Source of the DNA: Desulfoscipio sp. XC116
GTDB taxonomy: Bacteria; Bacillota; Desulfotomaculia; Desulfotomaculales; Desulfallaceae
Reading direction: 5' to 3'
DNA length: 64,000 nt
Assembly (NCBI RefSeq): GCF_039851975.1
Contig: NZ_CP156660.1
Coordinates: 3,725,035-3,789,034 of the forward strand
Every line of letters starts with the position of its first letter. The first letter of the stretch is position 1. Positions 14,745-53,635 of this stretch are shown in pieces. The position numbers were made by a program, and so were the translations under genes. A model generated the notes under the pieces. The model saw only the letters and a program-made list of their open reading frames with translations, was not told the DNA's origin and ran no database searches.

Positions 14745-14746
14745 CT

Positions 14747-15481: not shown

Positions 15482-15486
15482 AATTT

Positions 15487-16983
15487 TTACCGCCCCAGAC
15501 AAAAAATAAAATTTTGAATCTCATAGCGCTCGTTGACGCTCACAATTTCCGGCAGTTCCTCAACGGTTATTTTCCGTGCCTTTGCACCAAATACTTGCTG
15601 TGCGCCGGCAAATGGGGCGACTTGCTCATCATGGCTGAATTTAGCTATGTTTAAAGGAGAATTTTGGTGCAGCAATAGCCAAAAATCATAAAACGATCTG
15701 TGATCCAGCATGTCAGCCCGCCCACATATTTTTAACTGCTCAACCATTTGCCGGAGCGTAAACTCAACCGGTTCCTTAAACAGTCGGTTAATTAACTCCA
15801 TTATTTGGGTAAAGTTTTGCTTTTGTATTTTTTGTTCCAATAACCTCTGCTCCTCCGAAGAAATAGACAAAAATTCTCCGTCGTCATTTAAGGGGTCATC
15901 TCCCCCGATATACTGAGGCGCAAATACCGTTAACGGAGACCATCCCCGGTGTTGTTCCAGCGATAAGAAAGGCTCCACCAGCACACGGGCAGTCTTAACA
16001 GGCAGTGGAACAGTAATCAGCTTGGATACGATTTCCTGGTCAAAATTAAATGAATTCACGGCCACAAAATATAAAGACTCCCGGGCGGCCTTTAAAACAG
16101 TGGTATTTAATTCTATGGATTTTTTCAGCAGAAGACTGTGTTGGTGGTGAACTTCACCCAGCTCGCCGTCAATTTTTAAAATAAGCTCATAAGCTCTTTG
16201 ATCCCGGCGGTCTGTCTTCTCATAACCCAGCCGGTCCCTGGTTTCATGCACGAAGGCCAGCAGCTCTTCGAACTCTTCATTCTCGCGCCTCAGCCGCTGA
16301 TGCACATCTTGTATCGTTTGCTCATAACGCTGGTAAGACTCATCAGAGATAATATTGCGCTGAATTTCCTGCTTTACTTTTCTCATTCGTTCCTGCAGCT
16401 GTTCCACGTTCATGCGCATCTCTTCAATTTGTCTTAAGGCTCCCACAAACTCCCCTTTTTCCAGCTGCTTACGCAAAAGCAGCTGGTTAATGGATAATTG
16501 AAACTCGCTGAAAAATTCTTTAGTGGCAAAAACAAGCTCCAACCCATGCTCGTCCAAGACATAATATTGGCTGTACGTTTCCAGGTCATGTTTGGCGGCC
16601 TTTAAATAAGAGTACGAGGCTTGCTCCATTTGACGGGTTTCCCAATTATAAAAAATATGCGTGGATCTTTTCCCCAGAGGCGGCCGAAAAGTTTCAATAA
16701 TTAAACGGGCTAAATTTTCATAACCGGACGCATCAAGCGTTATAACATCGCCTGCGAGACCGGCCAGATATCTGGCGAGTTCACGAACGCCGGCTTTTTT
16801 TCTCATTAACATATGTTCAAAGAAAAAAAGCAGGGTCAGCATGCCCAGGCCATAATAGTCAATGGGCTCGCCGCTTTTATCTTTGCCGGTTTTATTCTTA
16901 AGCTTATAAAGCGGTTCGAATAAGCCGATGCGATGCATACGCTCATGGTATCCCGATGTAATTCCTTTTAGCTGGCCGTCCAT
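15487..16983 (-). CDS. jetA: Wadjet protein JetA, MukF-like kleisin
   Basis: A 498-residue protein of the DUF5716-type JetA family, the kleisin that links JetC heads. The N-terminus (GYHERMHRIGLFEPLYK) and the middle coiled coil (about 190-300, rich in EQLQERMRKVKQE) fit this family. ATG 16983 with GGAG nine bases upstream; it overlaps jetD by 16 bases. Together with a DUF6063-type JetB and a DUF2220-type JetD, this set looks like the type III form of Wadjet rather than type I, as I remember the family definitions. Confidence 0.88.
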   Translation of the reverse strand: MDGQLKGITSGYHERMHRIGLFEPLYKLKNKTGKDKSGEPIDYYGLGMLTLLFFFEHMLMRKKAGVRELARYLAGLAGDVITLDASGYENLARLIIETFRPPLGKRSTHIFYNWETRQMEQASYSYLKAAKHDLETYSQYYVLDEHGLELVFATKEFFSEFQLSINQLLLRKQLEKGEFVGALRQIEEMRMNVEQLQERMRKVKQEIQRNIISDESYQRYEQTIQDVHQRLRRENEEFEELLAFVHETRDRLGYEKTDRRDQRAYELILKIDGELGEVHHQHSLLLKKSIELNTTVLKAARESLYFVAVNSFNFDQEIVSKLITVPLPVKTARVLVEPFLSLEQHRGWSPLTVFAPQYIGGDDPLNDDGEFLSISSEEQRLLEQKIQKQNFTQIMELINRLFKEPVEFTLRQMVEQLKICGRADMLDHRSFYDFWLLLHQNSPLNIAKFSHDEQVAPFAGAQQVFGAKARKITVEELPEIVSVNERYEIQNFIFCLGR

Positions 16984-17987
16984 GTGCTATTTCTCCATAT
17001 TTCCTGAAGTTCGTTCTTGTTTAACGCTTCCTGGGGATAATAGCGGCCTGCGGATAAGAGGCCGGTTATCATTTGCTGTTCCGCCCGGTTAAAATGGGCC
17101 GTAAACTGTTCCAATGCCTGGCGATCCAGGCGCTGGTTTTGTTTGCCCAATTCCGCCCGCTTGGTCAAAAGCGCCCGATAGAAGGTAACGGCAGGCTTAA
17201 GCTTGACTTTGTTATTTATAGACCACCAGATACGAATGCCCTCGGCATCCAAGTCACCAAAATAATAAATAATGTGCGCACATTCCGAAAGATTCAGCTG
17301 CTTTGGCAAATGGGCCAGATTGGCCACCGCTTTCCAGCCTTCCCCATAAACCAGTGAGGTAAACTGTGTTTTGCAAAGCATATCGGCTAAAGCATAATAG
17401 GTGGTTTTGTTTTCCACAACCAAATGCAGATGTAATGGTGCGGCAAACTTATCAGGTGCTACGGAAAACATGAGCGGATCAGGGGTTACTTCTATTTTTA
17501 ACTGTTCCAGAACACCCAACCGCTCCAGAACTTTCATCCCCCCCGCCTCCAGCCATTTTTCATCGGCCACCAGCTCATAAGAACGCTGCGGCATGGAAGC
17601 AGGCAGCTGAGGAATACCGTTATTTTCTAAATAAGCATCAAGTTTTTTAATGTATACTAAATCCTTATGCCATTCTTTTTCATTTAGCTTGTAGTAGCGA
17701 TCCAAACTCATTAACGGGTGGACTGTCAACTGCCACTGTTTGATTTCTTGCTGATGAGATCTTAAGGCATCTTTCTTGATGGCGTATTTATTGGCTAAGG
17801 AAGGCTTTTTATAATTTTCGCCCGCTGAATCTATCTTCTTTAATACTCCCTGTCCTTCCAGAGTGAGTATTGTTTCAGCAAATTGTTCATAAGTTGTTGA
17901 ACCGGGGCAGGCTTGTTCAAGCTTACCCAAGGTAATAAATGAATTTTTATACGCCTTTAAATAACTGAGTATTTCTTGCCGGAGCAT
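16968..17987 (-). CDS. jetD: Wadjet protein JetD, Toprim nuclease
   Basis: The nuclease subunit, related to topoisomerase VI subunit A. The 339 residues comprise an N-terminal helical region and a C-terminal Toprim-like domain whose metal ligands are visible as VVENKTTYY (Glu, near 205) and YYFGDLDAEG (DxD, near 250). The start is ATG 17987 with AAAGGTG six bases upstream; a GTG three codons earlier is possible. It is the first gene of jetDABC, and its start codon and ribosome site lie inside a 69-bp dispersed repeat, so expression signals may have come with the repeat. Confidence 0.9.
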   Translation of the reverse strand: MLRQEILSYLKAYKNSFITLGKLEQACPGSTTYEQFAETILTLEGQGVLKKIDSAGENYKKPSLANKYAIKKDALRSHQQEIKQWQLTVHPLMSLDRYYKLNEKEWHKDLVYIKKLDAYLENNGIPQLPASMPQRSYELVADEKWLEAGGMKVLERLGVLEQLKIEVTPDPLMFSVAPDKFAAPLHLHLVVENKTTYYALADMLCKTQFTSLVYGEGWKAVANLAHLPKQLNLSECAHIIYYFGDLDAEGIRIWWSINNKVKLKPAVTFYRALLTKRAELGKQNQRLDRQALEQFTAHFNRAEQQMITGLLSAGRYYPQEALNKNELQEIWRNSTWTAS

Positions 17988-18052
17988 GTTCAACACCTTT
18001 CATTGAAAACATGGATGGAACACGGATACTGTTTTCATGTTCCTATGTACTA
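17984..18052. repeat. dispersed repeat R2, copy 1 (jetD promoter region)
   Basis: Nearly identical to 33437-33513: shared blocks GCATGTTCAACA, TTTCATTGAAAACATGGATG, ACGGATACT and GTTTTCATGTTCCTATGTAC. The other copy has an extra eight bases after GGATACT. This copy covers the jetD ribosome site and start. Confidence 0.85.
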
Positions 18053-20369: not shown

Positions 20370-20909
20370 TTACCTTTCGATACCGTCCCTGGCAGGTACC
20401 CCCTTTTCGTAGTAGTGCTTGATCTCCTTCATTTCCGTCACCAGGTCCGCCGCTTCGATAACCTCACGCGGAGCGTATCGGCCGGTAAATATTACTTCCA
20501 CGTTATCGAGCTTTGTTCTGATGATTTCCAGCATTTCTTCCGTTGTGATCAGATGAAAGTAATGAGCAGTATTGATCTCGTCAAATATAATTATATCGTA
20601 TCGCCCGGAATTCATAGCCTGCCTGGCTTTTTCCAAACCTATCCCGGCCATTTTCACGTCTTCCTCCAGAGGAGGGTTCTGCACATGGATAAAAGTGTCT
20701 TTGCCGTACTGCTCAATGGTTATATAAGGTTTACACATTTCGGCCGATTTTAGTTCTGCGTAGTGCTGTCCCTTCATAAACTGGCCTATATAAGTTTTGA
20801 GCCCCCGACCCATGGCCCGAAAGGCCAGTCCCAAGGAAGCCGTGGTTTTGCCTTTGCAGTTTCCGGTATAGACCTGCACATACCCCTTTTGTAAGACAGA
20901 TGATCCCAA
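20370..20909 (-). CDS. cobO: corrinoid adenosyltransferase (CobA/BtuR/CobO type)
   Basis: A 179-residue P-loop ATP:corrinoid adenosyltransferase that attaches the 5'-deoxyadenosyl group to cobalt, giving adenosyl-cobamides. The P-loop YTGNCKGKTTASLGLAFRA is at residues 14-32, and the Walker B-like IIFDEINTA at about 108. TTG 20909 is the start, with GGGAGG seven bases upstream. It stands alone between the E1 operon and an Rpn nuclease gene. No cobalamin riboswitch is visible in front of it, but its role fits the corrinoid loci at 22-33 and 45-64 kb. Confidence 0.93.
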   Translation of the reverse strand: MGSSVLQKGYVQVYTGNCKGKTTASLGLAFRAMGRGLKTYIGQFMKGQHYAELKSAEMCKPYITIEQYGKDTFIHVQNPPLEEDVKMAGIGLEKARQAMNSGRYDIIIFDEINTAHYFHLITTEEMLEIIRTKLDNVEVIFTGRYAPREVIEAADLVTEMKEIKHYYEKGVPARDGIER

Positions 20910-22303: not shown

Positions 22304-24508
22304 CTATTTCGTTGGAGAATCACCGTTCACTGCGATATAATAGATTAACGGCTCTTTGTCTCCATCCTGTACGATCAAACGAATAAGACCCTTGTCGGGC
22401 GCGACTGCAAAGTCGCGGGAAGCCGCGCGCAAATTGTTGATATAGACATTCGCTGCCGCGTCCGCCTCCACCGTCACATTGAACGCCCCTTTTACGTCAG
22501 CGGTGTATACGTAAACGCCATCCTCCAGCGGCAGAGCCGCGCCGGCCACCAATATCCTTGCAGGCGGTGCGCTTACGCCCACCTCGGTATCGCCCGCAGT
22601 CGCACGGGCCACCACATTCACTTCGGTGGACTTCTCCCCGATACCGCCCAGGCTGAGGGTCAGGGAAGCAGTCTGTACCTTGATATAGTGAATTTCATCA
22701 AGTTCCACCGGCATACCGGTTTCATCCACCGCCCAGTCAAGATCGAAGCAGTCCCCAGCCCCCTCGTAAATTTCTTTCAAATCGGCAGGTGCGATCAGCC
22801 CCTCTTTCTGCTTTGTAACGAAGAGATAGGGATTTTTCGCCCTGCAATCCACAGTAAGGATTTCACCCGTACCCCATGCCGTTTGACTGTTTGTATGCAC
22901 ATCCGCGTAACCGAAAGCGGGAAATCCGGCATGACCGCCGCTGCCGAAGGGGATCTGCACACCGGACACTGTGATGTTCTTTTCGCTATCCCCCGGCCAA
23001 CCGTACAGGGGATAGTTTTTCGGACTGGGGTACATGCCGCCCAGGACCTTGCCGTCGATTACGTGGCTTCCGTCTTCCCCTCTGGTATAGGTTACCGGAT
23101 GATCCCATTTAACACCGTCCTCATAATGCTCGGAGCCGGCCAGCGTATACCAGGTTTTACCGTCCTCCGAAATCAGAACATTCCCCGGCTCGGAAAAGCC
23201 CGCGCCGCCGTTGGAGTTGCCGTACACGATAAAGTCGATCCCATAGGAATTGGCGGGATCGTTCCGGATTGCCTCCTCATAATAATAATTGATATAACCG
23301 CCGAAGTTACCCAGACTGATAGGCGACCACCAGGCGCCCAGCCCGATCAGCGATTTCTCCGGATAGAGGCCGTAAACACCGGTCACCGGGTTGCCGCCGT
23401 CGCTGTACTGGGACCCGACGCACAAATAGTCCACCACCGCATCCGGCGAATCCACCAGCCGCCGCGCGCCGGTGAAGGCAATCGTCTGCTTGTTGCCGCG
23501 TTCATCCTCCAAAACCAGATAACGGGTCACGGTGACTTCATCGCCGAAATCTGCATCTCCAACAGTGAAACTATAAACACCGTTTTTTTTCGCAAGCGCA
23601 CCGCCGATGATATTGGAATCAGCATCTTTTAGATAAACTTTGGACGTGACACGGCTTGCGCTAAAGCTGATCACAGCTTCATCGGCATCTTTATCCATAA
23701 CAAACTGCTGGTAAAGATCTTTAACCGCAAAAGGTGTATAAAAGACGGCACCGCTGGCGGAGAGTGTTTCCAGTACAGGCAGATCCAACTGCCAGCAAAT
23801 GGTCAGAGTCCGCGAACCGCCGCCTTCCTCGTCTTCTCCGGCAATCGATACCCCGCTGTACGCCCCGGTTTCATATTTCGCGTAATTCAACTCCGGCTTC
23901 ATCTTGCTAAGAATAAAAAGCATGTTCAGTCCTTTCCTGGACAGACCGCTATTTTCATCCTCCACCGGCCTTGTGCCCTTGAAGGTCAGCGTATATTCAC
24001 CGCTGTTTCCGGCATCCGGCTCAATTTTTACACCCGACATTGAATTAGTTACCCGGTCGGCAGGATCCAGCCGGAGCCGGATACTGTCCGCGCCCTCCGG
24101 CACAAGCAGCCATTTTTTAAAGCCTTTCCCCTGCGCCGACAGCGGTGTGCCGTCTTCCAGCGCAAGCGTAAAGGAAGGTGCCACGTTTAACACTCTGCGT
24201 ACCGTTGCAAGCCCTTCCGCCGATGTCGCGTAGATATCCGTCCCGCCGGGAGCCACCGCCTCCAGGATAGCCTCCCGGCCGCCGTTGCCACTGACGATTT
24301 TGGCAACGGATTGATCTTCGATTGTCCAGACACAATCCACAGCTTCACCGTCCAGCGTGGCGGTCAAGCGGGTTGTTTCACCCACCAGCAAATCTGTCCC
24401 GCTGTCCGCATGAAAGTTTAGAGTTTTATCCGATTCGGCCCGGGACTGAACGGCCGGCATGGCTGCCAGTAAAAACAGCGAAAGAAGAAACGCAAGGACT
24501 TTTTTCAT
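22304..24508 (-). CDS. exported Ig-like cell-surface protein in a cobalamin-controlled operon
   Basis: A 734-residue protein. A signal peptide (MKKVLAFLLSLFLLAAMPAVQSRA) is followed by a BIG2-like Ig domain (about 30-110, GETTRLTATLDG). A middle domain carries IDFIVYGNSNGGAGFSEPG and NVLISEDGKTWYTLAGSE (about 425-460) and then DCFDLDWAVDETGMPVEL, a pattern common in proteins labelled 'cell surface protein'. The C-terminus resembles a cadherin-like beta-sandwich. There is no membrane anchor at the C-terminus. ATG 24508 with GGAGG upstream. It lies 77 bases after the giant GLUG gene, so it should be under the same cobalamin riboswitch. Function unknown; I infer corrinoid binding or capture from regulation only. 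Confidence 0.85.
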   Translation of the reverse strand: MKKVLAFLLSLFLLAAMPAVQSRAESDKTLNFHADSGTDLLVGETTRLTATLDGEAVDCVWTIEDQSVAKIVSGNGGREAILEAVAPGGTDIYATSAEGLATVRRVLNVAPSFTLALEDGTPLSAQGKGFKKWLLVPEGADSIRLRLDPADRVTNSMSGVKIEPDAGNSGEYTLTFKGTRPVEDENSGLSRKGLNMLFILSKMKPELNYAKYETGAYSGVSIAGEDEEGGGSRTLTICWQLDLPVLETLSASGAVFYTPFAVKDLYQQFVMDKDADEAVISFSASRVTSKVYLKDADSNIIGGALAKKNGVYSFTVGDADFGDEVTVTRYLVLEDERGNKQTIAFTGARRLVDSPDAVVDYLCVGSQYSDGGNPVTGVYGLYPEKSLIGLGAWWSPISLGNFGGYINYYYEEAIRNDPANSYGIDFIVYGNSNGGAGFSEPGNVLISEDGKTWYTLAGSEHYEDGVKWDHPVTYTRGEDGSHVIDGKVLGGMYPSPKNYPLYGWPGDSEKNITVSGVQIPFGSGGHAGFPAFGYADVHTNSQTAWGTGEILTVDCRAKNPYLFVTKQKEGLIAPADLKEIYEGAGDCFDLDWAVDETGMPVELDEIHYIKVQTASLTLSLGGIGEKSTEVNVVARATAGDTEVGVSAPPARILVAGAALPLEDGVYVYTADVKGAFNVTVEADAAANVYINNLRAASRDFAVAPDKGLIRLIVQDGDKEPLIYYIAVNGDSPTK

Positions 24509-24585
24509 ATTTTCGCCTCCTTGATTTCTGATCAGACGATGCCGGCCGCACTTTTACGAGCGCACCCGGCACCGCCGAACAAAGT

Positions 24586-27500
24586 TTACTTGCCTATTGT
24601 GGTTCTCCTATATCTGCCGACAGCGCCGGCGCCGGCAATCCCCAAAATCAACAACGACAACACAGCTGTAAGCAGCCGATTTTGCCGGACGGCATTTTTC
24701 ACTATTTCAAAAACCGTCAAATTGGCCGTATTCTCAGGCTCATCTTCCTGCTCGTCTTCCTCGGACTCACCGATAGCGCCTCCGCCGCCCTCGGCCGATA
24801 CATCCGGCTCATCACTTACAATATCATCAACCGAAGCACCGCCCTTGATTTCGTCAGCTTCCGCCAGAGGAGCCAACACATCGGCGCTGTCGGCGCTATC
24901 CGGTTCCATACTGCTGTCCGACAACTCGTAGGGACTGTCCGCGGTGGTTGCCTCCCCGCGGCCGCTATCGCCGCCGCCTTCGCCCATCTCGTCGCCAATG
25001 CCTTCGCCGATGCTCTCGCCATCGCCTTTGCCAAGGCCATCACCATCGCCGATCCCTTCGCCGTCGCCTTTACCGTCGCCATTGCCTTCACCGCCGGTGT
25101 TTTCTTCGTCTTCATTGTTTTCTTCGTCATCGTCAGGGGCGGGTTCTTCCTCCTCCGGCGGTTCTTCTTCCTCAATTTCCTTCAAAGAAACGGTTGCGGT
25201 CACAACCGCATCACCGGCCAAAGTGAAGACCATTGATGAGGTGATATCCTCTGTCTCCCCCTTCTGGGTCACGGTCAGGCTGTCCAGCTTATATTCATAC
25301 GTTGTCCCGGATTCTCCGGAGCTGTTCTCATACTCGTTTATCTCAACATTCACATTTACCCTACTGTCAATGGGAGCGTAAGCCAAAGGTTGGCCGTTGA
25401 GGAATACGGAACCGCCGCCGCTCTCACCCGTTATTTCCGACCGCACCTGATAATAGGACGGAGTGCCCAGAATGGGATAGCCTTCTTCCACACCCTGAGT
25501 CCAGATTTCCCGGTGCGAATCCACACCGCCATCCAGCAGGTAAGCCGCCTCGCCGCCGGGAAAAGCGCCGCCGTCCAGTTTAGTCGCCCCATTTTCGTCA
25601 TAAGGGTCGGTGGTGACGTATTTTTTACCCGCCGGCGCTTCCTCCCGCGATTCTTCCTCCGCGCTCTCCTTGAAACCGTAATAGCAGTCGGTCACACTTA
25701 TGCCGGAATCGAAGACGCCGCTGATAGCGCCCGCGTCGGTCATACCTTCGGGAACTGCGATAAAATTGCCGTACCAGTAGGAATTTGCCAGTGTCACAGA
25801 GACAGAGCGTCCCATCAGACCGCCCACACCCAAGCTGCTTTCATCCTTGCCGTCGGCCATCACACTGCCGATGCTGTAGCAGTTTTCAATTAAGTTCCCG
25901 CCATTCCCGCCATTAGCAGCAATACCGCCGGCTGTGCTTCCAGTGGTGTAAATGTTCCCCATGTTGGCGCATCTTCGAATCGTTACCCTACCCGCAGAGT
26001 TCACCTGAGCGATGATACCGCCTACATACATAGAGCCATCCGGGTGAGTACCGTGAATATCCGCACCGTTAACACAATCCTCAATGAGCCCGCAGGAATA
26101 TACACAAATACCCGCAACACCGAAACCTCCGTTTGAACTTGTTGCGCCTGATCCTGTGACAGTGACTCCCGGTTCCAACTCACAGTCTCTAATTACGGAT
26201 TCGGAAGAATCGTATCTGGCAAGAGCCAGGATACCGGCCACGTTTGCTCCTCCGCTGATAACGCTGCCCTCTTTGATAGTGCACCTTTCAAAAATACCAT
26301 TGAAGCTTTCATATGCAATACCCGCATTGCAGTTGTACAGCTTTGCAGAGATCTCACAGTCTCGGATGATGCCTTTATTCGTGTATACAAGGCCGGCAGA
26401 GATATTCGCAACCGATTCTCCTTCAATTTTCAGATTTTCCACCACGCCGCCCGCCTCTATTGTTCCGAACAATGCATGCATCTGTCTGTTATTGAGGGTG
26501 ATAGTGTGTCCACCGCCGTTAAAAATCCCGGCAAAGACCGTATCCTCCGAGCCGGGCAGTTCCTTGCCAATTGAAGTCCAGTCGGCGGGCAGACTGATGT
26601 TATCCGTCAGGGTGAAAAGAACACCTGTATAGTCAACACCCTGGTTGATATTATCCCGCAGTTCCTCAAGCGACGCCAGATCGGCAATTTCCAGTTCAGT
26701 ACCCTGTTCATAACCCGTAACTGGCTCTTTAGCCCAGTTTGCGGTTAAGGTCATACTTTCCGTAACGGAATCCGCAAAATTCCAAGCCGTATTATCTTTA
26801 GTCAGCCAGCCGGACAGTTTGTAGGTGTGTAAGCCGGCAGCTGTTTTTTCAGCAGCCGGCGCGGTCACTTTTTCGCCACTGTCAACGATTACCGCCAGCA
26901 CAGCGGCCGTATCATCTCCTATCGTGACGGCGCCCCCGGCGGCGTCAAAGATTACCACGCAGGTGCCTTCCACGGCCCAACCAGCGTAAAGGGTTATATC
27001 ATCGCTCACCGGCTGAGCAAAGTCATAAAGCAGTAGACAATCCTCATCGGAATACCAGCCCCGAAAGTCATAACCGTCTCGGGCAGGCTGCTCGCCAGGC
27101 TGCATTACCGCTTCGCCCGCATTAACGACGACCTCCATCCGGTTTTCTCCACCGGCAAACCCGCCTTCCCCCGCGTCAAAGGCAACTGTGTATCTGTCAG
27201 TTAAATACCAGCCGGCATAAAGAGTCAAATCCTCTTTTACTGTTGCTGTGAAGTTATATGGAACAGTACAGCCTTCATCAACGTACCAGCCGGCAAAGTC
27301 AGCCTTGACCAACGCACCGTCTTCATAAACCGGCTTTTCATCCGGCTCCGCAGCCCGTTTGCCGACCTGTACCTGTTGGGATCTTAAGGCGGACCCGTCC
27401 GGCCATTCGCCGCCCTTGGCGTCAAAGACAACGGTAAAGATTTCGTCTAAATCGGCTGGAACCTCGGCAAAGGCGGCAGTAAGCGCTACATCATTGTTTT

Positions 27501-30500
27501 CGGGCATGGCAAAGGTGAAGGTCATGGCTGCGTCATCCACCCTCGCCGCGCAGATTGCGCCGTCCGCCGCCGTCGCCTCAACGTAGTCGAGTAAATAACC
27601 ATCCTTCACCGTAAAACATAAGGTAACGGACGCGCTCTCGGCCCTGTAAGCGGCAAGCGCCGCGCCTACCGGCACTGTGTCCGCACCCAGAGTTACGCCG
27701 TTAACAGGCAACAACGGATCGCCATTCGCGGTAAATCCAGCGGCGGGACCGGTCATTTCAATCGTCAACCGGTAAAGGGCGGGATGGCTGCCGTTTGACG
27801 GCACCGGATAACTGTCACCCTGCCCCCAGTTTTCCGTACGCCCGCTCGCGTCACCATTATCCAGCAGATAGGCCACCGCGCCGGAAGCGAACTCCGCCGC
27901 TGTTTTGCTTGTGGCGTTGGCAGCGTCCACCGGCTGTGCCGCAAGGGAACTATTCAGATAATAGCTGTTCTGATTGCCGGGAAAGCCTGCGGCACTGATA
28001 ACGCCTGCATTTTGGTTGTTCACGGCGGAAACGGTTCCGTAATTGAAACAGTTTAGCGCGTAAGCGTACGCTCCGTCTTGGTTTATGCCCGTGATACCCG
28101 CCGCACGGGTGTCGTCACCCTCTCCTCCGACCGTACCCAGATTATAGCAGCGGTATAGGTGATTGAGGAGGGAAATTCTCCCCGCCACTAGTCGACCCTC
28201 CAAAAAACCGACTACTCCGCCCACATAATCGCCGCTGCTGGTGACAACACCACCAACGTCGTTATAGCACATACTGAGATAATCGCCGGAGCCGTTGAGC
28301 TCTACCGAACGCAAGTACCCGATTACACCGCCGGTGTACATTCCAACGCTGTTAACCGTTCCAGCGTTATAGAGACCGTTTACCTCAACACTGCCGAGCA
28401 GCGTGCCAGCCACACCTCCGGTGTAACTTCCGGCGCCGGAAACTGTGCCTACATTGCAGCAATTAACAGGCTGCGCATATTTATCCAGCACGCCGGCCAC
28501 ACCCCCGGTGCTTTCTCCGTCTCCAGTGACCGCGCCTGCATTGCGACAATCAGCCAACTGCGCATAATCATCCGACACCCCAACTACACCGCCGGTGTTT
28601 GCGCCGCTGCCGACACCGGTGCCTGTAACAGTTCCCGTGTCAGCGTTGCGGCAATCGTCCAGCTCGGCGTAAGTACCCAGCGTACCGGCCACACCCCCGG
28701 TGTTGCCGGCGCCCGTTACCGCACCCGCGTTACGACAGCCGGTCAGCCGCGAATAATTACCCGCCTTTCCGACTACGCCGCCGGTATCGGTGTCGCCCGC
28801 AACCGAAGCCTCCGCATCGTTGCAACAATCACTGAAGACCGGCATATTGGCCGCCGAGCCGGCCGCCGCATGGCCGGCCACGCCACCGGTACCGGCGCCG
28901 CCCGTTACCGTGCCCGCGTTATGGCAGCCGGTCAAAACCGCCGAGCCGACCAGGTAACCGGCCACTCCGCCGGTATAACTTCCGGTACCCGAGACCGTAC
29001 CGGCACCACCGTTATAGCTGCCGTTCAATGTTGCGGCCATGGACGCGCTGCCGACGATACCGCCCACTTTGTCCGTGCCGGTAACCGCACTTGCGTTGGC
29101 ACAGTTTGTAAAGCTGCCGCCCCCACCTTCACCGGCCACGCCGCCCACATTGCTTGCACCGAAAACCGCGGCTCTGTTTTCGCAATTCGTAAAACTGCCG
29201 CTGGAAGAAACGCCTGCAATACCGCCCACGTTACCGCCGCTACCGGTGACAGTGGCGACGCTAGCGCAGTTGTTAAATGTACCGTTAGAGACTTCGCCCG
29301 CTATGCCGCCCACTTTGTCGGCGCCGATAAGCACGACGCCGCCCGTGCAGTTTTCAAAAGCACTGTTCTCGGCCACGCCCGCGATGCCCCCCAGCTTAGT
29401 AGCGCCCTTGATGACACCCCGCACAGTCAGATTTTGAATGGTGGCGTCCTTAAGGTAACCAAAAAATCCTTGCATTTCACCGGAAACCTCCATATCCAGC
29501 CCGGTGATTGCAAAATATCCGTTATCCGCGTTAACACCGGCCATGAATACTCCGGTGAAAGGATGTTCCAGGGTGCCGATAGGAGTCCAGTAAGTAGCCG
29601 TTAGCTCAATGTCCGCGCCGAGGGTCACTGTTTTACCGGTAAAGTCGGCTCCCTCTTCATTAACCAACCGGGCCAGACCCCTCAATTCCGCTTCCGAAGA
29701 AATACTGAAGCTTTCGTCCGTCCCTGCTCCGTACCAGCCGGTATCGCCCTCCACCTTGATCTCTTTTGCATAGCTGATGACGATATCCCCCTCAATGCCG
29801 GTGACAGTATAGCTGCCGTGGGGCGCACCCCCGGACGTATCCTTGTACACCGTGTCGATAGGCTTAAAAGCCAAATCGTCCGCCGCGTCAAGACCGGCGG
29901 CCGCCAGGTTGATCTCCATGCCCTTGTTTGCATAGGTATAAATATCGTAAGCCTTCCAGGCCGCTCCGGCCGGTGCGGCAGGGTTTACGCTGATACCAAG
30001 GGCGTCATTCTGTACAACACTGATTTTATAAACAGCGGGATGTTCCTCACCAACAAATGCGGGGACGGGATCAACGCCCAGCTTTTGTCCCCAAACATTG
30101 CCGCGCGCTTCAGTACCGCCCTTGTCCATCGCATAGGCAAGCGCGCCGTACCGAAAATCATCCGCTTTTTTAGCGCCGGGATCGGTTCCGCTATATGAGT
30201 CATCCACCAGGTAATAACTATCGGCGATTGCCGCACCCGTTCCGCCCGCCGGCGCCAGGTCCTGCACTGCAGCGTCCCTTGTTAAATAGGAATAGCAGCC
30301 GGTGATGGAAATGTTGTCACCGGGGCTTTCGACACCACCCGCCAGGGCGCCCCGCGAGCCGTATACCGCACCGGTTACAGTACCGGCAACGTAACTGTTG
30401 CTGATGGCCACGCTGCCGCCGACCAACCCGGCGATGCCGCCAACATTGCTTTGTCCGCTCACCGTACCGGCAGAGCTGGCAACCTTATCCAGTTCCAGTT

Positions 30501-32757
30501 CGTCTTCATCGCCCGCCAGGCGACCGGCGACACCGCCCACGTTGTCATTGCCGGTGACCGCGCCAAGGTTCTCCAACACGCCAACGCCGGCTCTCTTCAC
30601 GTCGCCTTTGCCTAAACCGGCAATACCGCCCACGTTATTTGCACCGGTAATCGTACCGCTGTTGCGAACAACCCCGGCATTATTCAGATTGATACAACTC
30701 TCAACTTGACCCGCAATACCGCCCACGTTATCGCCGCCGGTGACCGCGCCAAGGTTTTCCATTGTTCCGTATTGGTTCGATATATTGGTTCCGACCCAAC
30801 CGGCTATACCGCCCACACAACCAGCGGCGCCATAAACGCTGCCACTGACCGTACCCGTATTTTTTATGACACCGTTGCTGCCAAGCGCTACATAGCCGCC
30901 CGTATAGCCCGCAATGCCGCCCACATAGCTTGTGCCGGCTATATTGCCGCTGTTGATTGCCTGATACATAAGGCCATTCAAGCCCCCGTTCAGATAACCA
31001 ACGATACCGCCCGCATAATCTCCTTCGGCAGTAACGGAACTGTTGTTTTCATAGGCCCCGTAAGGGACAAAATCACCGCCGCAAAAGCCGATGATACCGC
31101 CCACATAAGCTTCGCCGCCGACGCCGGCTTCATCGGCCCCAAGTCCGGCAACATCATTTGTGACAACAGCTTCAGTGCCTGGTTTTGAACCATAGGAATG
31201 GCTCTTGGTTCGACCAACAATGCCGCCGACGGCTTCCCGGCCCGCCACCCGGCCTGTGTTTTGCACCGTACCGTTGAATCTGGCGCTGCTCGGACCGTTG
31301 AAAGCGCCGCTCATATACCCGATGACGCCGCCAATGTTGGCGCCGGTACCGATGACCGCACCGTGGTTCTCAACGGTATTGCCGGATGGACAGTACATAT
31401 CGCGGACATTCCCCGGATCGCCCAAACAACCCAGTATACCGCCTACGTCACTGTCTCCGCTTATCGCACCGTGATTTATGATGACTTTGCCCGCATCATT
31501 GGAGTAAGAACCAAAATTTCCGCCGCATTGACCAAATATACCCCCCACATACTGCCCGCCGCTGACTGTGCCGTAGTTTGCGTAGTCGCTATTAGCCTGG
31601 GCGGATTTACAATAGCCTGCCACGCCGCCCACGTAATTTCCGCCTGAGACAAAGCCCTTCACCGCCTCGCCGCCAAAGACACAGTTAATGAGTGTGTTAG
31701 TAACGTCGGCATAGCCTACGATCCCGCCCACGTAGTCGCCGGTGCTGTAGACACTGCCGGTAACCGTTAGTTTGCTGATTCCGGCGTTTTGCGCATAGCC
31801 GAACAGACCCTGATAATTTTCCGATACCGGCCCGGCCGTGCTACCGATAGACAGACCGCTGATCACATGACCTGCCCCCTCGAAATTTCCCTTGAAGGGT
31901 TTTTCCCCAGTACCGACGGGCATCCAGGCGCCTGTCAGCGCAATATCTCCGAACAAAGTAATTGTCTTGCCGGAAAAGTCTGCGGCTTCGACCACACTAC
32001 CTGCCCCATCCCTAGCCGTACCTCTCACCAATTTGGCCAGATAACGCAGTTCAGCTTCGTTGGATATGGTAAAGGCCGTTGCCCCGGGATCGTCAAGGTA
32101 CCAGCCACTGCCATCGCCAGGGACTTCCGCCGCCCACCTGGCATAAAGCTCAATATCCGTTTCCACCGCCGCCTCAAAATCATAGGCCGTGGTTCCCGCC
32201 TCTTCCGTATACCACCCGACAAATCTGTACAAAGTGCCTCCCTCGTCATCCCTCACAGGTTGCGCTGCCGGCGGGGATACCTTCTCTCCCGCATAAACGA
32301 ATTCAGTTACGGACAACGTGCCGGAATCGCCGAAATAACCTCCGTTCCCGTAAAAGGCGACCTCGTAAACCTGCACGGTTACGGATGGCGATATGACGTC
32401 ACCATAGTAAACCTGCCGGGATACAGACGGCGAAATGATTTCATAAGCCCCGCCCCCCTCATCCGGGCCCGGTGTAACTGCCGGTTCGTAAACATGCTCC
32501 GTTACAGTTTGGGTTATATCTCCTTTTGCACCGGTTTCCCCACCTCCGACCGTTAGGCCCGGTGGAGCCGCCGGCTCATAAATATGCCCCGTCACAGTTT
32601 GACTTATCTCTTCCCGACCGACCGCGGTTCCTATTATGTCCGCAGACGGAGCCGGCAGTTCACTTGCCTGCACAGCTATCATTGACTGTGGCAGCAGCAA
32701 GGCAATACACAGCATAATGCTTAGAACAGCCTTTAATCTCCGTTTTCTCACTGTCAT
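24586..32757 (-). CDS. giant GLUG-repeat surface protein behind a cobalamin riboswitch
   Basis: A protein of 2723 residues. Signal peptide (residues 1-32), then InlB/Flg_new-type beta-grasp repeats (FVGWYTEEAGTTAYDFEA, about 175-205). Three long blocks of GLUG-type beta-helix repeats (about 285-820, 1035-1615 and 2035-2370) repeat units like VGGIAGYV or TGGVAG every 25-30 residues. Three more 'LYAGW' repeats lie between the second and third blocks (about 1800-2010). An acidic, Gly-rich linker (about 2460-2570, GDGKGDGEGIGDGDG) precedes a C-terminal membrane helix and basic tail (VLSLLILGIAGAGAVGRYRR). There is no LPxTG. It is a cell-wall-spanning rod tethered by its C-terminus. ATG 32757, directly after a leader ORF stop. 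Adhesin or ligand receptor are both possible; regulation points to corrinoids. Confidence 0.88.
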   Translation of the reverse strand: MTVRKRRLKAVLSIMLCIALLLPQSMIAVQASELPAPSADIIGTAVGREEISQTVTGHIYEPAAPPGLTVGGGETGAKGDITQTVTEHVYEPAVTPGPDEGGGAYEIISPSVSRQVYYGDVISPSVTVQVYEVAFYGNGGYFGDSGTLSVTEFVYAGEKVSPPAAQPVRDDEGGTLYRFVGWYTEEAGTTAYDFEAAVETDIELYARWAAEVPGDGSGWYLDDPGATAFTISNEAELRYLAKLVRGTARDGAGSVVEAADFSGKTITLFGDIALTGAWMPVGTGEKPFKGNFEGAGHVISGLSIGSTAGPVSENYQGLFGYAQNAGISKLTVTGSVYSTGDYVGGIVGYADVTNTLINCVFGGEAVKGFVSGGNYVGGVAGYCKSAQANSDYANYGTVSGGQYVGGIFGQCGGNFGSYSNDAGKVIINHGAISGDSDVGGILGCLGDPGNVRDMYCPSGNTVENHGAVIGTGANIGGVIGYMSGAFNGPSSARFNGTVQNTGRVAGREAVGGIVGRTKSHSYGSKPGTEAVVTNDVAGLGADEAGVGGEAYVGGIIGFCGGDFVPYGAYENNSSVTAEGDYAGGIVGYLNGGLNGLMYQAINSGNIAGTSYVGGIAGYTGGYVALGSNGVIKNTGTVSGSVYGAAGCVGGIAGWVGTNISNQYGTMENLGAVTGGDNVGGIAGQVESCINLNNAGVVRNSGTITGANNVGGIAGLGKGDVKRAGVGVLENLGAVTGNDNVGGVAGRLAGDEDELELDKVASSAGTVSGQSNVGGIAGLVGGSVAISNSYVAGTVTGAVYGSRGALAGGVESPGDNISITGCYSYLTRDAAVQDLAPAGGTGAAIADSYYLVDDSYSGTDPGAKKADDFRYGALAYAMDKGGTEARGNVWGQKLGVDPVPAFVGEEHPAVYKISVVQNDALGISVNPAAPAGAAWKAYDIYTYANKGMEINLAAAGLDAADDLAFKPIDTVYKDTSGGAPHGSYTVTGIEGDIVISYAKEIKVEGDTGWYGAGTDESFSISSEAELRGLARLVNEEGADFTGKTVTLGADIELTATYWTPIGTLEHPFTGVFMAGVNADNGYFAITGLDMEVSGEMQGFFGYLKDATIQNLTVRGVIKGATKLGGIAGVAENSAFENCTGGVVLIGADKVGGIAGEVSNGTFNNCASVATVTGSGGNVGGIAGVSSSGSFTNCENRAAVFGASNVGGVAGEGGGGSFTNCANASAVTGTDKVGGIVGSASMAATLNGSYNGGAGTVSGTGSYTGGVAGYLVGSAVLTGCHNAGTVTGGAGTGGVAGHAAAGSAANMPVFSDCCNDAEASVAGDTDTGGVVGKAGNYSRLTGCRNAGAVTGAGNTGGVAGTLGTYAELDDCRNADTGTVTGTGVGSGANTGGVVGVSDDYAQLADCRNAGAVTGDGESTGGVAGVLDKYAQPVNCCNVGTVSGAGSYTGGVAGTLLGSVEVNGLYNAGTVNSVGMYTGGVIGYLRSVELNGSGDYLSMCYNDVGGVVTSSGDYVGGVVGFLEGRLVAGRISLLNHLYRCYNLGTVGGEGDDTRAAGITGINQDGAYAYALNCFNYGTVSAVNNQNAGVISAAGFPGNQNSYYLNSSLAAQPVDAANATSKTAAEFASGAVAYLLDNGDASGRTENWGQGDSYPVPSNGSHPALYRLTIEMTGPAAGFTANGDPLLPVNGVTLGADTVPVGAALAAYRAESASVTLCFTVKDGYLLDYVEATAADGAICAARVDDAAMTFTFAMPENNDVALTAAFAEVPADLDEIFTVVFDAKGGEWPDGSALRSQQVQVGKRAAEPDEKPVYEDGALVKADFAGWYVDEGCTVPYNFTATVKEDLTLYAGWYLTDRYTVAFDAGEGGFAGGENRMEVVVNAGEAVMQPGEQPARDGYDFRGWYSDEDCLLLYDFAQPVSDDITLYAGWAVEGTCVVIFDAAGGAVTIGDDTAAVLAVIVDSGEKVTAPAAEKTAAGLHTYKLSGWLTKDNTAWNFADSVTESMTLTANWAKEPVTGYEQGTELEIADLASLEELRDNINQGVDYTGVLFTLTDNISLPADWTSIGKELPGSEDTVFAGIFNGGGHTITLNNRQMHALFGTIEAGGVVENLKIEGESVANISAGLVYTNKGIIRDCEISAKLYNCNAGIAYESFNGIFERCTIKEGSVISGGANVAGILALARYDSSESVIRDCELEPGVTVTGSGATSSNGGFGVAGICVYSCGLIEDCVNGADIHGTHPDGSMYVGGIIAQVNSAGRVTIRRCANMGNIYTTGSTAGGIAANGGNGGNLIENCYSIGSVMADGKDESSLGVGGLMGRSVSVTLANSYWYGNFIAVPEGMTDAGAISGVFDSGISVTDCYYGFKESAEEESREEAPAGKKYVTTDPYDENGATKLDGGAFPGGEAAYLLDGGVDSHREIWTQGVEEGYPILGTPSYYQVRSEITGESGGGSVFLNGQPLAYAPIDSRVNVNVEINEYENSSGESGTTYEYKLDSLTVTQKGETEDITSSMVFTLAGDAVVTATVSLKEIEEEEPPEEEEPAPDDDEENNEDEENTGGEGNGDGKGDGEGIGDGDGLGKGDGESIGEGIGDEMGEGGGDSGRGEATTADSPYELSDSSMEPDSADSADVLAPLAEADEIKGGASVDDIVSDEPDVSAEGGGGAIGESEEDEQEDEPENTANLTVFEIVKNAVRQNRLLTAVLSLLILGIAGAGAVGRYRRTTIGK

Positions 32758-32889
32758 TTAACCTTCTCCCATCAGTTTACTAATTTGCAACAATGTACAT
32801 CTTGCCGACTTCGGGGCCTGATGCACCATACCTTTGGATTTACAGCCTCTCGCAAGGATTCCGTCCCCGACCCTCCTTTTGCAATCCAT
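32758..32889 (-). CDS. 43-codon leader ORF coupled to the giant surface protein
   Basis: ATG 32889 has AAAGGAGG seven bases upstream, a stronger ribosome site than that of the giant gene. It runs 43 codons (starting MDCKRRVGDG, ending KLMGEG) to a TAA whose last base touches the ATG of the giant protein, so the two are translationally coupled. It is basic with four cysteines and has no family I know. It sits after the riboswitch terminator, so it is transcribed only on antitermination. It could be a regulatory leader peptide or merely a ribosome-loading device. Confidence 0.6.
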   Translation of the reverse strand: MDCKRRVGDGILARGCKSKGMVHQAPKSARCTLLQISKLMGEG

Positions 32890-32935
32890 TAACCAACCTC
32901 CTTTCAAAGAATCGACAGCTTATCCGCATACCCAC

Positions 32936-32974
32936 ATAAAAAACAACCCCGGCTTCCGCGGAAGCCGGGGTTGT
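32936..32974 (-). terminator. riboswitch-controlled intrinsic terminator
   Basis: A perfect 15-bp stem, ACAACCCCGGCTTCC with its complement (32943-32974), followed on the minus strand by GTTTTTTATG. It lies about 90 bases downstream of the cobalamin riboswitch and upstream of the leader ORF. It is the expected expression platform: cobalamin bound, transcription stops. Confidence 0.9.
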
Positions 32975-33065
32975 ACCTGAAAAAAAACTGGCATACAGAT
33001 ATTATTCGTAACCATTTCAGCACTTAACCTTTCCACGGAAGGTCTATAAGATGCTATCCCGCCCA

Positions 33066-33230
33066 AGGCAAGTCTCCTGACTCATGGTTCATTGCCATCC
33101 TCCCGCCTTACCGTCCCCTCCGCCGTCTTTTTAAATGACGGAGCAAAACAGTGGCATAATGGGAGCGGCTAACCATTCACAGTGGCCGGACCGTCCGGGA
33201 TTTACACCCGGTTCCCTTTTCAGCTTCGAT
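33066..33230 (-). promoter_or_regulatory. cobalamin riboswitch upstream of the GLUG surface-protein operon
   Basis: On the minus strand the conserved order is present: AAAAGGGAACCGGGTG, AAATCCCGG, GGCCACTGTGA and the B12 box GAGTCAGGAGACTTGCC (33068-33084). The peripheral arm with GACGGAGC is also visible. It controls the terminator at 32.94-32.97 kb. The genes behind it should be switched off by adenosylcobalamin. Confidence 0.93.
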
Positions 33231-33258
33231 TAAAATCAAAGCGCCTGAGCAAAAACAA
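33224..33258 (+). repeat. 35-bp direct repeat R3, left copy (island boundary)
   Basis: CTTCGATTAAAATCAAAGCG plus CCTGAGCAAAAACAA. It matches 45281-45315 in the same orientation with one mismatch (A for T at the eleventh/twelfth base). It abuts the 5' edge of the cobalamin riboswitch. Read with the right copy, it looks like an attachment site or junction duplication around a 12-kb island. Confidence 0.85.
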
Positions 33259-33436
33259 ATATTCAGTTATTACTAATTTAACATTTATTCTACATCTTAG
33301 CAATACTTTGCAAATAACGCCGTATTTCTTGTTTATTTGTTGTCTTTTAATGCGCAAATATATCAATTTATTGATTATTATATTGTTTAATGTGATCTTT
33401 TTAAAAAAATTTATAACCGAGTATTTTTTTGCCGGG

Positions 33437-33524: not shown

Positions 33525-33653
33525 ATGAAAAAGGCTTATGAAAAGCCGGAGATTGAAATTACAACATTTGAACCGGAGGATATCTTGGCGAGTACCTTAT
33601 TGGACGGGGGCAGCGGAACCGGCGATGAATTCGGCTGGGGCGACATTCGTTAA
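33525..33653 (+). CDS. small RiPP-like precursor peptide (42 aa)
   Basis: ATG 33525 with AGAGGTG six bases upstream. The peptide opens with a KKAYEKPEIEITTFEPEDIL leader-like segment, the 'K-x-Y-x-K-P-x-(I/L)' start common to lasso-type and other Clostridial RiPP precursors. It ends in a short Gly/Ser/Asp-rich core (LLDGGSGTGDEFGWGDIR) with one Trp. The next gene is an HprK-like kinase of the type found next to such precursors. No cyclase, protease or ABC exporter is present, so this looks like the remnant of a cluster or an orphan. RiPP status is inferred from leader shape and neighbour. Confidence 0.55.
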   Translation: MKKAYEKPEIEITTFEPEDILASTLLDGGSGTGDEFGWGDIR

Positions 33654-33747
33654 GCAACATTGATGGCCCATGGCAGGTGGCGCAAACCCGCCTGTCATGT
33701 TTAGCCCATGGGTAATGCCTTATCGGGCCGGAAAGGAAGAAAATCAA

Positions 33748-34454
33748 TTGAACCACTATAAAATAGCCGATCTGACCCTGGCAATGGAAGGCGCGGGAAA
33801 AACCCTGCAAAGACTGATGAAGCCCTACGGGGCGGATACAAATGGAAAAGCGGACATCACCATGAGCATCGACCGGGAAAAAATGAGCAGGACCGGGGAG
33901 GAACATCCCCATCTATCGCCTGACCAATGGGAATACATTCAGAGGGCTATGCCTTTGCCTGCAAGTTGCTGAACTTTGACGGATTTTGCCTCCACGCCTC
34001 GGCAGTGGCGCTGGAGAACCGGGCGGTGCTGTTTTCCGGTCCCTGCGGCACGGGCAAATCCACCCATACCCATCTGTGGCGGCAATATTTTGGCAAGAAT
34101 AAGGCGGTCATCATCAATGACGACAAGCCGGTACTACGCCGGACAGAGGATATTTTCTACGTCTATGGCGCACCCTGGAGCGGGAAAAGTGCCTTGAATA
34201 CGAATATCCGTGTCCCCCTCAGTGCGGTTGTTTTTCTGAAACAGGCAAAGGAAAATCATATCCGGCGTTTGAGTAATAAGAAAGCGATACAAATGCTGTT
34301 TTATCAAAGCCAGCGTCCGGGCGGCGACAGGGACAGGATCAACAGCCTTTTAAGCCTGATTGACGCCCTGCTGCAAAGGATACCGATCTATCAATTGAAC
34401 TGTGACATCAGCTTTGGTGCGGTTAAAACCGTATATAACGAAATCTGTCATTAA
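33748..34454 (+). pseudogene. HprK-like serine kinase, frameshifted
   Basis: The N-terminal part (TTG 33748 with GAAAGGAAG upstream, HYKIADLTLAMEG onward) and the C-terminal part (SEGYAFACKLLNFDGFCLHASAV, P-loop SGPCGTGKSTHTHLW, then NDDKPVLRR) are in different frames; the switch is near 33935-33950. The joined product is an HPr-kinase-like protein of about 235 residues, as found in lasso-peptide and related RiPP clusters, where it phosphorylates the precursor. A single-base indel explains the break, so a sequencing error is possible. It supports the RiPP reading of the gene just upstream. Confidence 0.7.
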
Positions 34455-36629: not shown

Positions 36630-39600
36630 ATGGCTAATATTAACACCAAACTGGAATACTGGAAAAATCGTTTGCTTGATTTAGGCAAGCGTAACAGACT
36701 GATAAATTGTCCTTTGCCGAAATCGGGTGGGCGTGTTTCTCGCACTTCTTTGTTGATAAACACACCCGACACCTCTGAGCTTTGGGATTTATTTGATGAA
36801 GGCAGTAAGGCTCTCGTTTTTCCAATACCACCAATTGAACTGAAACTTGAAGAGGCAGACAATGAAGTATTGTCAGTGTTTAATAACGGTATAGAAACAA
36901 ATCAAACACCGAGCGAATCCTATAAGACATTACACAGTCTAATGAAGAAAGCTAAGGAATTTAACGAGGAAAAAGGGTTGAATGCTTTACACCTTGCGTT
37001 CGGATTCCTTAACTGGAAAGAAAATGGTGCGGAAGGACAAGAGATGCGTTCGCCTTTGTTGCTGATGCCCGTCAAACTCACGCAAGAAGATTTATTTTCC
37101 CCTATTTTGCTTTCTCGTGCGGAAGATGAATTAACGGCGAACTATTCATTAGAGCAAAAGCTCATTAGCGATTTTGGCATTGAACTTCCAGTGTTGACGG
37201 AAGATACCGAACTAAATGATTACATCAGCAAGGTAAAGTCTGCTGTTTCTTCATTAGGATGGAGCGTTTCGACAGATGTAACTCAATTATCGCTATTTTC
37301 ATTTATGAAAATAAATATGTATCGTGATTTGGAGCGTAACGCTGATAAAATAAAAGGTCATCAAATTGTAAGAACACTAAATGGCGAAACTTTCAAAGAT
37401 GCTTCAAATATTTCAGATGTATTGGGACATAATCACGATACAATCGACCCACAATCGGTATTTTCGGTAGTCGATGCCGATTCAAGTCAACAAGATGCTA
37501 TACTTCTTGCCAAATGCGGTGCAAGCTTTGTTTTGCAAGGACCGCCAGGCACTGGCAAGAGTCAAACCATAACTAATATAATTGCTGAACTTATCGCCGA
37601 TGGCAAAAAGGTTCTATTTGTATCAGAAAAGATGGCGGCACTTGAAGTTGTCTATAAAAGGCTGTGTATTGCAGGCTTAGGTGATTTCTGTCTAACTTTA
37701 CATAGCCACAATGCAAAACGCCGTGAAATACTTGACCAATTTGAAAAATCAATAAAACTCTCACGTTCGAAAGCCTCACTTCACCAAGAGGTTTTTAACA
37801 AGTTGTACAGATTAAAAGAAGTCCGTGCCACATTGAACGCATACAGCAAAGAACTTCATACAGTTGTGGAGCCACTCGGCAAAACGATATTTCAAGTAAA
37901 CGGATTTATTTCGCAACTTGAAATGTATAAAAACATCGACTACGTCCAAGCAAACGCAGAAAACTTTACTCAGGAGTTGTTATCACAGTGCGAATCCGCA
38001 CTTGAAGAGTTGGAACGGATTGTCAGGGTAAGCGGTTATCAACAACATAATCCGTGGAAAGGTTGCACTTTAACACAATGGACACACGAATTCAAACAGC
38101 AGTTTATCGTTGATACAGAACGCTTAGTAATCGCACTTAACAATGGTATAGCCCTATTTAACGAAGTGAACGCAATTCTTGGAGTTGAAAAGGATTGGTC
38201 ATATAGCGGAATAACGACTGTTGCTGAAATCTTCGCAATATCGGAAAAAACGCCAACCGTACCTTTTTCATGGACTGTGTTGAATTTGCTACGAACGAGA
38301 GAAAAAGTATTAGAATGTAAGACAACACTTGAAAAAAAGAAAATAGCGGAAGAGCAGTTTAATAATGCTAAATTAATAACAGAGCGGATTCTTGTAGACA
38401 TAAGTTCCGAGAATAATATCGGTATTGACGCAGGTTACGAATCAACCCTGAGCGATGTTGTAAATTCTTACAATGTGATAAACGCACACTTTAATAGTGT
38501 AAAGCAAATATGTGACGAGGTTTGCAAGAATATCGTAAGTGAGGCAAAAATTGCAATTGATTTAAACGGAGCCCCATCCCTTTATATAACCACGAGCGAG
38601 TATAATGAGTTATTAACTGCTCGTGAAGAACGAGTTACTATAAATAATCAAAACGAAGAAGTAGTTAAAGATTTAGTCGATAAAAAAGCTATGGCTCTGA
38701 AAACTCAGCAAGAAGAAACTAAGAAATGTGAGACGGCATGCGAGCAATATGAAGCCGCTCGTAAAGAGTTACTTGTTAAATATGACGAAAAGATTATCGA
38801 TCTCGACCTTACCCAGATTATACAATATTATCGTACTACCTACCGCTCGTGGTTTGCTCGCATAGGTGGAGGGTATAGGAATTATCAGAAAACATTACTG
38901 TCTTTCTGCAAGACTGCTGTAAAACTCAAGTATGAGGATAGCTTGACGTTAATAGATTGTATTGATAATGTTCAAACCTTGCGAACCGCTTTTGAAACGC
39001 AAAAGCGGGTTGCCGAGACCGCCGAAGAAGAACTTAAAGCCTATTGTCAGGAGTTAGTTAACGCCGAATTGAGAAGAGATAAAATTGCCGAGGAATTCAA
39101 AAGCAACACAACAGAGATTCAAAACGCAAAAGGAGCGATACTTGCCGTTGCTCAGAATACATCTACAGAACTAAAACATTCATTCGATGAGGCAATAGCA
39201 AAGTTAAGAAACTCGTGTAAATTTCTTGTCAGCGAACGGGAGTCACAAGCAAGTAATTTGACTGCGAAATTTGCAAATTTGTGTGATGAACTTAATCAAA
39301 CGCTCGGACTCGAAATAAGTGAATCTTTCGGCTTTGTCAAATTAATCGCAGACCTTGATTGGCTTATCGTATTTCAAGACATTATTAGGAATAATAATAT
39401 TTGTGATAATTATGCTAAATCAGTATGTGAAGATGATAGTAAATTGATTAGACAATTTGCTGGCGTTTTGAGTAAACTTCAAGATTGGAAATTACACGTT
39501 AACGATGACCTTAATAAGTTTGCTGATTTATTTGGAGAAAATGGTCGTGATATATTCTATCAAGCTACGCTTAGTAACGTGGTTAGAAAATCCCAAAGTT

Positions 39601-46102: not shown

Positions 46103-46394
46103 TTAATCACCTGCTCTTACATTGTCCCGGTTTGGGGAACCCGCGGGCCCCTATCACCGGGCCAAGCCGTGCCTTTGGGCCAAAGACGTCACCGTATAGG
46201 CAGTCATTACCGGGCTGGATGTCACTCCTTGTTTTTATTTAAAGGAACTGCCACTATCCTACGGGCTTAAAAGCGTAACGGCCCCACCCGGGCCAAGCAG
46301 CCGGCCATGCGCAAACACAGCGGCAACGCCAGCGTGTCGCTCTAAATATCAATTTCTTCGCATTTCAAAGACTCCCTCAATTAGCCCAACAAGC
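46103..46394 (-). other. leader between fused EcfA and the ECF S gene, possibly structured
   Basis: About 290 bases on the S-gene transcript. Short self-complementary pieces (CTTTGGGCCAAAG; CGGGCCCC/GGGCCCG-like) occur near 46150-46190. It has no B12 box and matches no riboswitch I know. A small frame reading ERHAGVAAVFAHGRLLGPGG ends at about 46260; it has no support. Confidence 0.3.
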
Positions 46395-46515
46395 CTTTTT
46401 ATCAAATTCCAAGATTCCCACTTCTATAAGCGGGGGTTCTTATTTTCACTTCGGGTGGGGTGGAATCCCCATCTGAAAGCCCTGATGTCCAGCTTTAGCT
46501 GAACGAGTTCACTTC
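46395..46515 (-). repeat. dispersed repeat R1, copy 2 (3' end of fused ecfA)
   Basis: Minus-strand orientation, starting AAGTGAACTCGTTCAGC and ending ATTTGATAAAAAGG, with the two hairpins CTTTCAGATGGGG/CCCCACCCGAAG and CCCCCGCTTATAGAAGTGGG. The TGA stop of the fused ATPase lies within it. Confidence 0.8.
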
Positions 46516-53628: not shown

Positions 53629-53635
53629 ACCGTCA

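Follow-up and report, generated by a model that had tools for sequence, protein, structure and literature searches.

The locus at positions 22304 to 33263 of a 64,000-nucleotide stretch of the Desulfoscipio sp. XC116 genome (contig NZ_CP156660.1, positions 3,725,035 to 3,789,034; hereafter the window) raises the question of why a cobalamin riboswitch should precede genes for a 2723-residue surface repeat protein, P0001, and a 734-residue exported protein, P0002. A model-made reading of the letters and open reading frames (the sequence-only reading) had proposed a function in corrinoid capture or in binding to corrinoid-carrying cells or material. Profile and fold comparisons revealed a vitamin B12-binding BtuH domain in P0002, and genes for related domains were found behind cobalamin riboswitches at most of the loci that could be assessed. 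The locus probably encodes a unit with which a monoderm bacterium captures corrinoids at its surface, a BtuH-type receptor being paired with a B12-regulated, membrane-anchored scaffold. The features on which this interpretation rests are, in window coordinates:

33050..33263, minus strand: complete cobalamin riboswitch aptamer (Rfam RF00174, 106.3 bits, E 1.3e-25, model positions 1-189)
32943..32974, minus strand: intrinsic terminator of the leader (expression platform), 14-bp perfect stem and T run
24586..32757, minus strand: P0001, exported, membrane-anchored GLUG/Flg_new giant of 2723 residues (open reading frame, signal peptide, repeats, anchor)
22304..24508, minus strand: P0002, exported, Ig-like N-terminal part and BtuH domain, 734 residues, no anchor of its own (open reading frame, signal peptide)
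22604..23464, minus strand: BtuH (vitamin B12-binding) domain of P0002, residues ~349-635 (profile search and Foldseek)

The BtuH domain of P0002

The sequence of P0002 was compared with the protein family databases; Big_2 was the only Pfam family above the cut-off, nothing matched in NCBIfam, and there was no Pfam match to DUF4465 at E 0.1. No C-terminal transmembrane (TM) segment, SLH domain or LPxTG motif was found in the protein. A phmmer search of the PDB gave one significant match, chain B of 8blw (BtuG1), and a three-sequence domain profile used with hmmsearch against the PDB recovered both 8blw_B (E 1.8e-26) and 7biz_A, the B12-bound crystal structure of BtuH2 (E 1.8e-17). The AlphaFold model of residues 344-734 had a mean local confidence (pLDDT) of 83 and a predicted template-modeling score (pTM) of 0.88. 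When this model was searched with Foldseek the same two structures, 8blw_B and 7biz, were returned with a probability of 1.00 and E values of 1e-15 and 5e-14, with nothing else below 0.001. The template-modeling scores to the BtuH folds were only 0.45-0.48 by query length, where both chains contain other domains.

BtuH2 (BT_1956) and the H domain of BtuG1 (BT_1490) of Bacteroides thetaiotaomicron bind B12 experimentally (PMC8941943, PMC10404256, PMC12751083), and the polar contacts of BtuH2 with B12 include Asn399 at the phosphate and Gln333 at the ribose (PMC8941943). The chain number in 7biz equals the BtuH2 residue number minus 100, and the numbering was checked by confirming that Asn399, Phe401, His476, Tyr510, Trp511, Trp577 and Leu578 fell on the right letters in the alignment. 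Direct alignment placed Asn399 at Asn431 of P0002 and Leu578 at Ile623. Gln333 sits just outside the BtuH2 alignment, and its most likely equivalent, Gln367 in an SQY motif, was assigned by motif and spacing. Of the 16 aligned domains 15 retain Asn431, and Gln367 is found in the majority of those that cover its position. By profile, over the C-terminal domain of ~270 residues, and by predicted fold P0002 is a member of the BtuH homology family, and its BtuH domain very probably binds a cobamide.

BtuH relatives and cobalamin riboswitches

The BtuH domain was found in 3 of the 113 genomes of the order and in 8 of 399 in the phylum sample; a single-sequence search of the genome contigs returned one relative, at L028. 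A riboswitch was counted when it lay on the same strand within the first three genes upstream. On this basis a cobalamin riboswitch precedes the BtuH gene at 12 of 15 assessable loci, compared with ~0.25 expected (P ~5e-20 if the loci are independent), and at 7 of 10 when one locus per genome is taken (P ~3e-12). The positive loci are the window, L024, L025, L044, L045, L046, L047, L048, L049, L050, L053 and L055, the last with a switch of 28.8 bits that is below the gathering score and was included in the 12; L028 was left out of the count because its contig starts inside the gene. Tandem pairs of riboswitches were found at L024, L025 and L049.

The relatives are exported and frequently carry DUF4430, alpha-toroid or SLH domains in the same chain; their gene neighbors encode DUF4430 proteins, CbiQ, the T, A and S components of energy-coupling factor (ECF) transporters, CbiZ, BtuR and toroid proteins. 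This cobamide-transport context consists in the relatives of the riboswitch together with ECF, DUF4430 and CbiZ neighbors; the BtuH locus in the window has only the riboswitch. An SLH or TM anchor is built into several of the other BtuH proteins; P0002 has none, and its operon partner P0001 does have an anchor. For P0002 the proposal of corrinoid capture gains good support from the BtuH profile and fold, from the riboswitches of its relatives and from operons with ECF, DUF4430, CbiZ and toroid genes. DUF4430 has been reported in vertebrate transcobalamins (PMC4350170), which is the sole basis for the term transcobalamin-like and was not used as proof. Sequence comparison of DUF4430 and the toroid with solved intrinsic factor and transcobalamin structures gave no homology link, and the toroid matches squalene cyclases.

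One 2.9-Mb genome (G420) gave 26 cobalamin riboswitch matches, 25 of them above the gathering score, and several of these head BtuH genes.

Riboswitch and leader of the gene pair

The window aptamer covers all 189 model positions and scores above the RF00174 gathering score of 31.5 bits. The leader terminator consists of 14 perfect pairs, nine of them G-C, closed by a 4-base loop and followed, on the minus strand, by a run of T; the stem alone has an energy of approximately -28 kcal/mol and the terminator lies 185 bases before the start codon of P0001. Inspection of the leader gave no clear pairing of more than 7 bases between an antiterminator and the 5' arm of the terminator, so the logic of the platform is taken from the riboswitch class; a terminator in this position would give OFF-type control, with binding of cobamide leading to termination. 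The genes of P0001 and P0002 are separated by 77 bases, in which no terminator-like site was found. Another cobalamin riboswitch in the window begins at 63874. The sequence-only reading had described a complete riboswitch, the second in the window, a perfect terminator platform and two large exported proteins, and was correct on each; the BtuH domain, the 19 riboswitches of the genome and a further pair of GLUG giants, each behind another of these switches, are additions to it.

P0001 and the GLUG giants of the genome

In P0001 a signal peptide, GLUG-type repeats and four stretches of the Flg_new (Listeria-Bacteroides) type were recognized, as was a hydrophobic segment at the C-terminus with arginine residues after it. 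Its parts are:

30148..32115, minus strand: GLUG block 1, residues 215-870, predicted beta-solenoid
27958..29745, minus strand: GLUG block 2, residues 1005-1600
26983..27192, minus strand: top-scoring of the four Flg_new stretches, residues 1856-1925 (Pfam PF09479, E 3.1e-38)
24589..24750, minus strand: C-terminal anchor with VFEIVKNAV segment, TM helix and GRYRR tail

The AlphaFold model of GLUG block 1 was a beta-solenoid (pLDDT 79, pTM 0.80), for which Foldseek gave weak PDB matches, 3n6z (E 0.009) and then autotransporter beta-helices. The Pfam search reported no GLUG (PF07581) match for P0001; two paralogues, to which it is homologous over more than 1300 residues at ~31% identity, score 84 and 34 bits. 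P0001 as a whole is predicted to form a beta-solenoid rod held in the membrane at its C-terminus. The genome (4.26 Mb, 2 contigs, 19 cobalamin riboswitches) gave no match to the Omp85 family and is therefore probably monoderm. In such a host the description of P0001 as wall-spanning, offered by the sequence-only reading, is plausible given its length, its predicted solenoid blocks and its anchor.

A search of the genome with the GLUG block revealed exactly three GLUG proteins, of 2723, 3008 and 3425 residues; in each case a cobalamin riboswitch stands ahead of the gene, which is the first large one after it. The three giants have common N-terminal features and a C-terminal anchor of the form FEIVK..V..N-TM-RY, which is also present on two leucine-rich repeat (LRR) proteins adjoining the 3008- and 3425-residue giants. 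A search with the anchor profile, A3, recovered six copies from this genome but not one from the 112 others searched in the order. The riboswitches and leaders of the 3008- and 3425-residue genes are close copies of each other, and these two genes were therefore taken as a single event; the riboswitch in the window differs clearly from theirs. A 1.09-kb direct repeat of 99.9% identity (L128:16999-18089 and L066:12402-13492; 592-605.5 kb of the genome), by which the tail of the 3008-residue giant recurs upstream of the LRR gene, is the trace left by a tandem duplication and deletion of recent date.

Proposed mechanism

The directly observed RNA switch, export signals, BtuH homology with its predicted fold, P0001-only anchor and linkage of BtuH genes to riboswitches would fit together as follows. 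Shortage of B12 would turn both genes on. Binding of cobamide would make the leader favor the 14-bp terminator and so switch both genes off, and with no cobamide transcription would read on into them. Secreted P0002 would hold cobamide in its BtuH domain, while P0001 would form an anchored stalk with its beta-solenoid blocks across the wall, docking the anchorless P0002 or exposing other sites. The captured corrinoid would then be handed to transporters of the ECF or BtuCDF type, whose genes lie behind other cobalamin riboswitches of the genome. Switch-controlled genes for corrinoid synthesis (CbiK, CbiJ, CobQ and CobT) are present in the genome in addition to uptake genes. A stalk or scaffold role of P0001 in corrinoid capture appears reasonably likely. 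Independent evidence for GLUG repeats as a scaffold in corrinoid capture comes from a distant genome (G352, locus L052), in which such repeats are fused to an alpha-toroid, of the type found in cobamide-uptake loci, beside a gene for a BtuH-DUF4430-toroid protein. More tentatively, the GLUG giants as a group might be B12-dedicated anchored beta-solenoid rods, turned on at corrinoid shortage, that carry or recruit capture domains through the thick wall and possibly bind corrinoid themselves, as the monoderm equivalent of the lipoprotein array formed by BtuG and BtuH.

Alternative explanations

Several observations weigh against a dedicated capture unit. The BtuH2 contacts with the corrin ring (corrin amides), His476, Tyr510, Trp511 and Trp577, are replaced in P0002 and most of its relatives, and the BtuH loci L051, L052 and L054 have no upstream cobalamin riboswitch. 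The 16-sequence BtuH profile and Pfam detected no B12-binding domain in the GLUG giants, and the physical contact between P0001 and P0002 is putative. In 15 other genomes of the order with GLUG proteins, none of the 27 places checked lies directly behind a cobalamin riboswitch; one GLUG protein has a same-strand switch 7.6 kb upstream, with several genes between, some of them reversed. GLUG proteins as a class were accordingly rejected as members of the B12 regulon. The sequence-only reading had held that homologues regularly outside cobalamin control would refute it, and this is the situation of GLUG proteins in general; it is not that of the three giants of this genome, nor of the BtuH genes.

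The altered corrin-ring contacts suggest that the affinity and specificity of P0002 may differ from those of BtuH2. These contacts come from one crystal structure and are not needed for homology, and their loss lowers the claim of identical ligand binding. A BtuH-like domain that binds a ligand other than a corrinoid is nevertheless very improbable, since the nucleotide-loop contacts are kept, the only clear fold matches in the PDB are two B12-binding proteins and most BtuH genes are under cobalamin switches. The possibility that P0002 acts alone as a secreted corrinoid trap, and that the giant is a separate adhesin holding B12-starved cells on corrinoid producers or particles with only the switch in common, is consistent with the missing anchor of P0002, with the resemblance of large GLUG/Flg_new proteins to adhesins and with the two other switch-controlled giants, which have no BtuH neighbor and one of which is followed by an LRR protein. 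It is considered unlikely, as a secreted trap loses its ligand unless it is rebound and the GLUG-toroid fusion in L052 speaks for direct involvement in capture. The giants could also have come under cobalamin control, with no role in B12 biology, through the chance duplication of a riboswitch promoter region. The near-copied switches of the 3008- and 3425-residue genes reduce to one event and GLUG genes elsewhere stand outside cobalamin control, but the window giant, with its clearly different riboswitch and ~31% identity to the others, is under a switch as well, and a BtuH gene follows it after 77 bases; this origin is considered improbable. A capture unit of BtuH-type receptor and anchored scaffold is the interpretation that we prefer.

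Other loci in the window and genome

The corrinoid adenosyltransferase BtuR/CobO is encoded downstream of the P0001/P0002 pair (20370-20909, minus strand), with an unrelated gene for a 285-residue protein between. Behind the riboswitch that begins at 63874 lies a corrinoid-uptake operon (45368-63746, minus strand) with CbiZ, a DUF4430 protein, an alpha-toroid protein and ECF T, AA and S components; it also encodes three unnamed proteins of 691, 260 and 517 residues and a MoxR-like AAA/DUF58/BatA/VWA module. Elsewhere, a cobalamin riboswitch precedes genes for a DUF4430-like 407-residue protein and a 1443-residue RHS-repeat protein (L071:1147-7159), and another, in the XC116 genome, lies upstream of a 16S-tRNA-23S-5S rRNA operon, from which it is separated by ~1.1 kb that contains no clear gene (L073:5825-12223; 3363.8-3370.2 kb).

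The window also contains a complete Wadjet type III defence system, JetA3, JetB3, JetC3 and JetD3 (10308-17996, minus strand), and a 1695-residue DUF4011/helicase/MTES_1575 nuclease that matches the defence models PDC-S37 and Hhe (36630-41717, plus strand). A short peptide resembling a precursor of ribosomally synthesized and post-translationally modified peptides (MKKAYEKPEIEITTFEPEDILAS...), with a 175-residue P-loop protein nearby and apparent transposase fragments adjoining (33525-34454, plus strand), is possibly a broken peptide cluster.

Relation to known systems

P0002 resembles the BtuH proteins of B. thetaiotaomicron in several ways. Its domain is homologous to theirs, in profile and fold alike, and is preceded by N-terminal Ig-like domains; the protein is exported and its gene lies under a riboswitch; and the nucleotide-loop contact Asn399 and probably Gln333 are retained. 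P0002 differs in its probably monoderm host, in the absence of a lipoprotein anchor and of BtuB/BtuG, in its extra C-terminal domain, in its GLUG giant as operon partner and in the loss of the BtuH2 corrin-ring contacts. BtuH homologues have been mentioned in three Firmicutes species, one near an ECF-like gene (PMC8941943); the homologue EUBSIR_01285 of Eubacterium siraeum is named in passing in the same paper, with no GLUG partner described there. The receptor P0002 is a new member of these already mentioned homologues. The jelly-roll B12 binders of the BtuJ/DUF4465 type (PMC12751083, PMC13398666) also capture B12 at the surface under riboswitch control, but belong to a different family; P0002 has no DUF4465 match and no such fold at E <= 0.001. 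P0001 shares its repeat type, export and large size with other GLUG/Listeria-Bacteroides repeat surface proteins and is set apart from them by cobalamin riboswitch control, for which no case in such a protein was found in the literature searched. Nor was a BtuH protein combined with anchored, cobalamin-controlled GLUG giants found in that literature.

Surface capture of B12 has been worked out for Bacteroides, while the passage of a scarce corrinoid of ~1.4 kDa through the wall of a Gram-positive anaerobe to its ECF transporters is little described. The locus offers a testable receptor in the BtuH domain, a regulatory link that recurs in several families and a class of giant wall proteins tied to one vitamin, and with them a possible function for 'cell surface protein' genes left unnamed by Pfam and NCBIfam.
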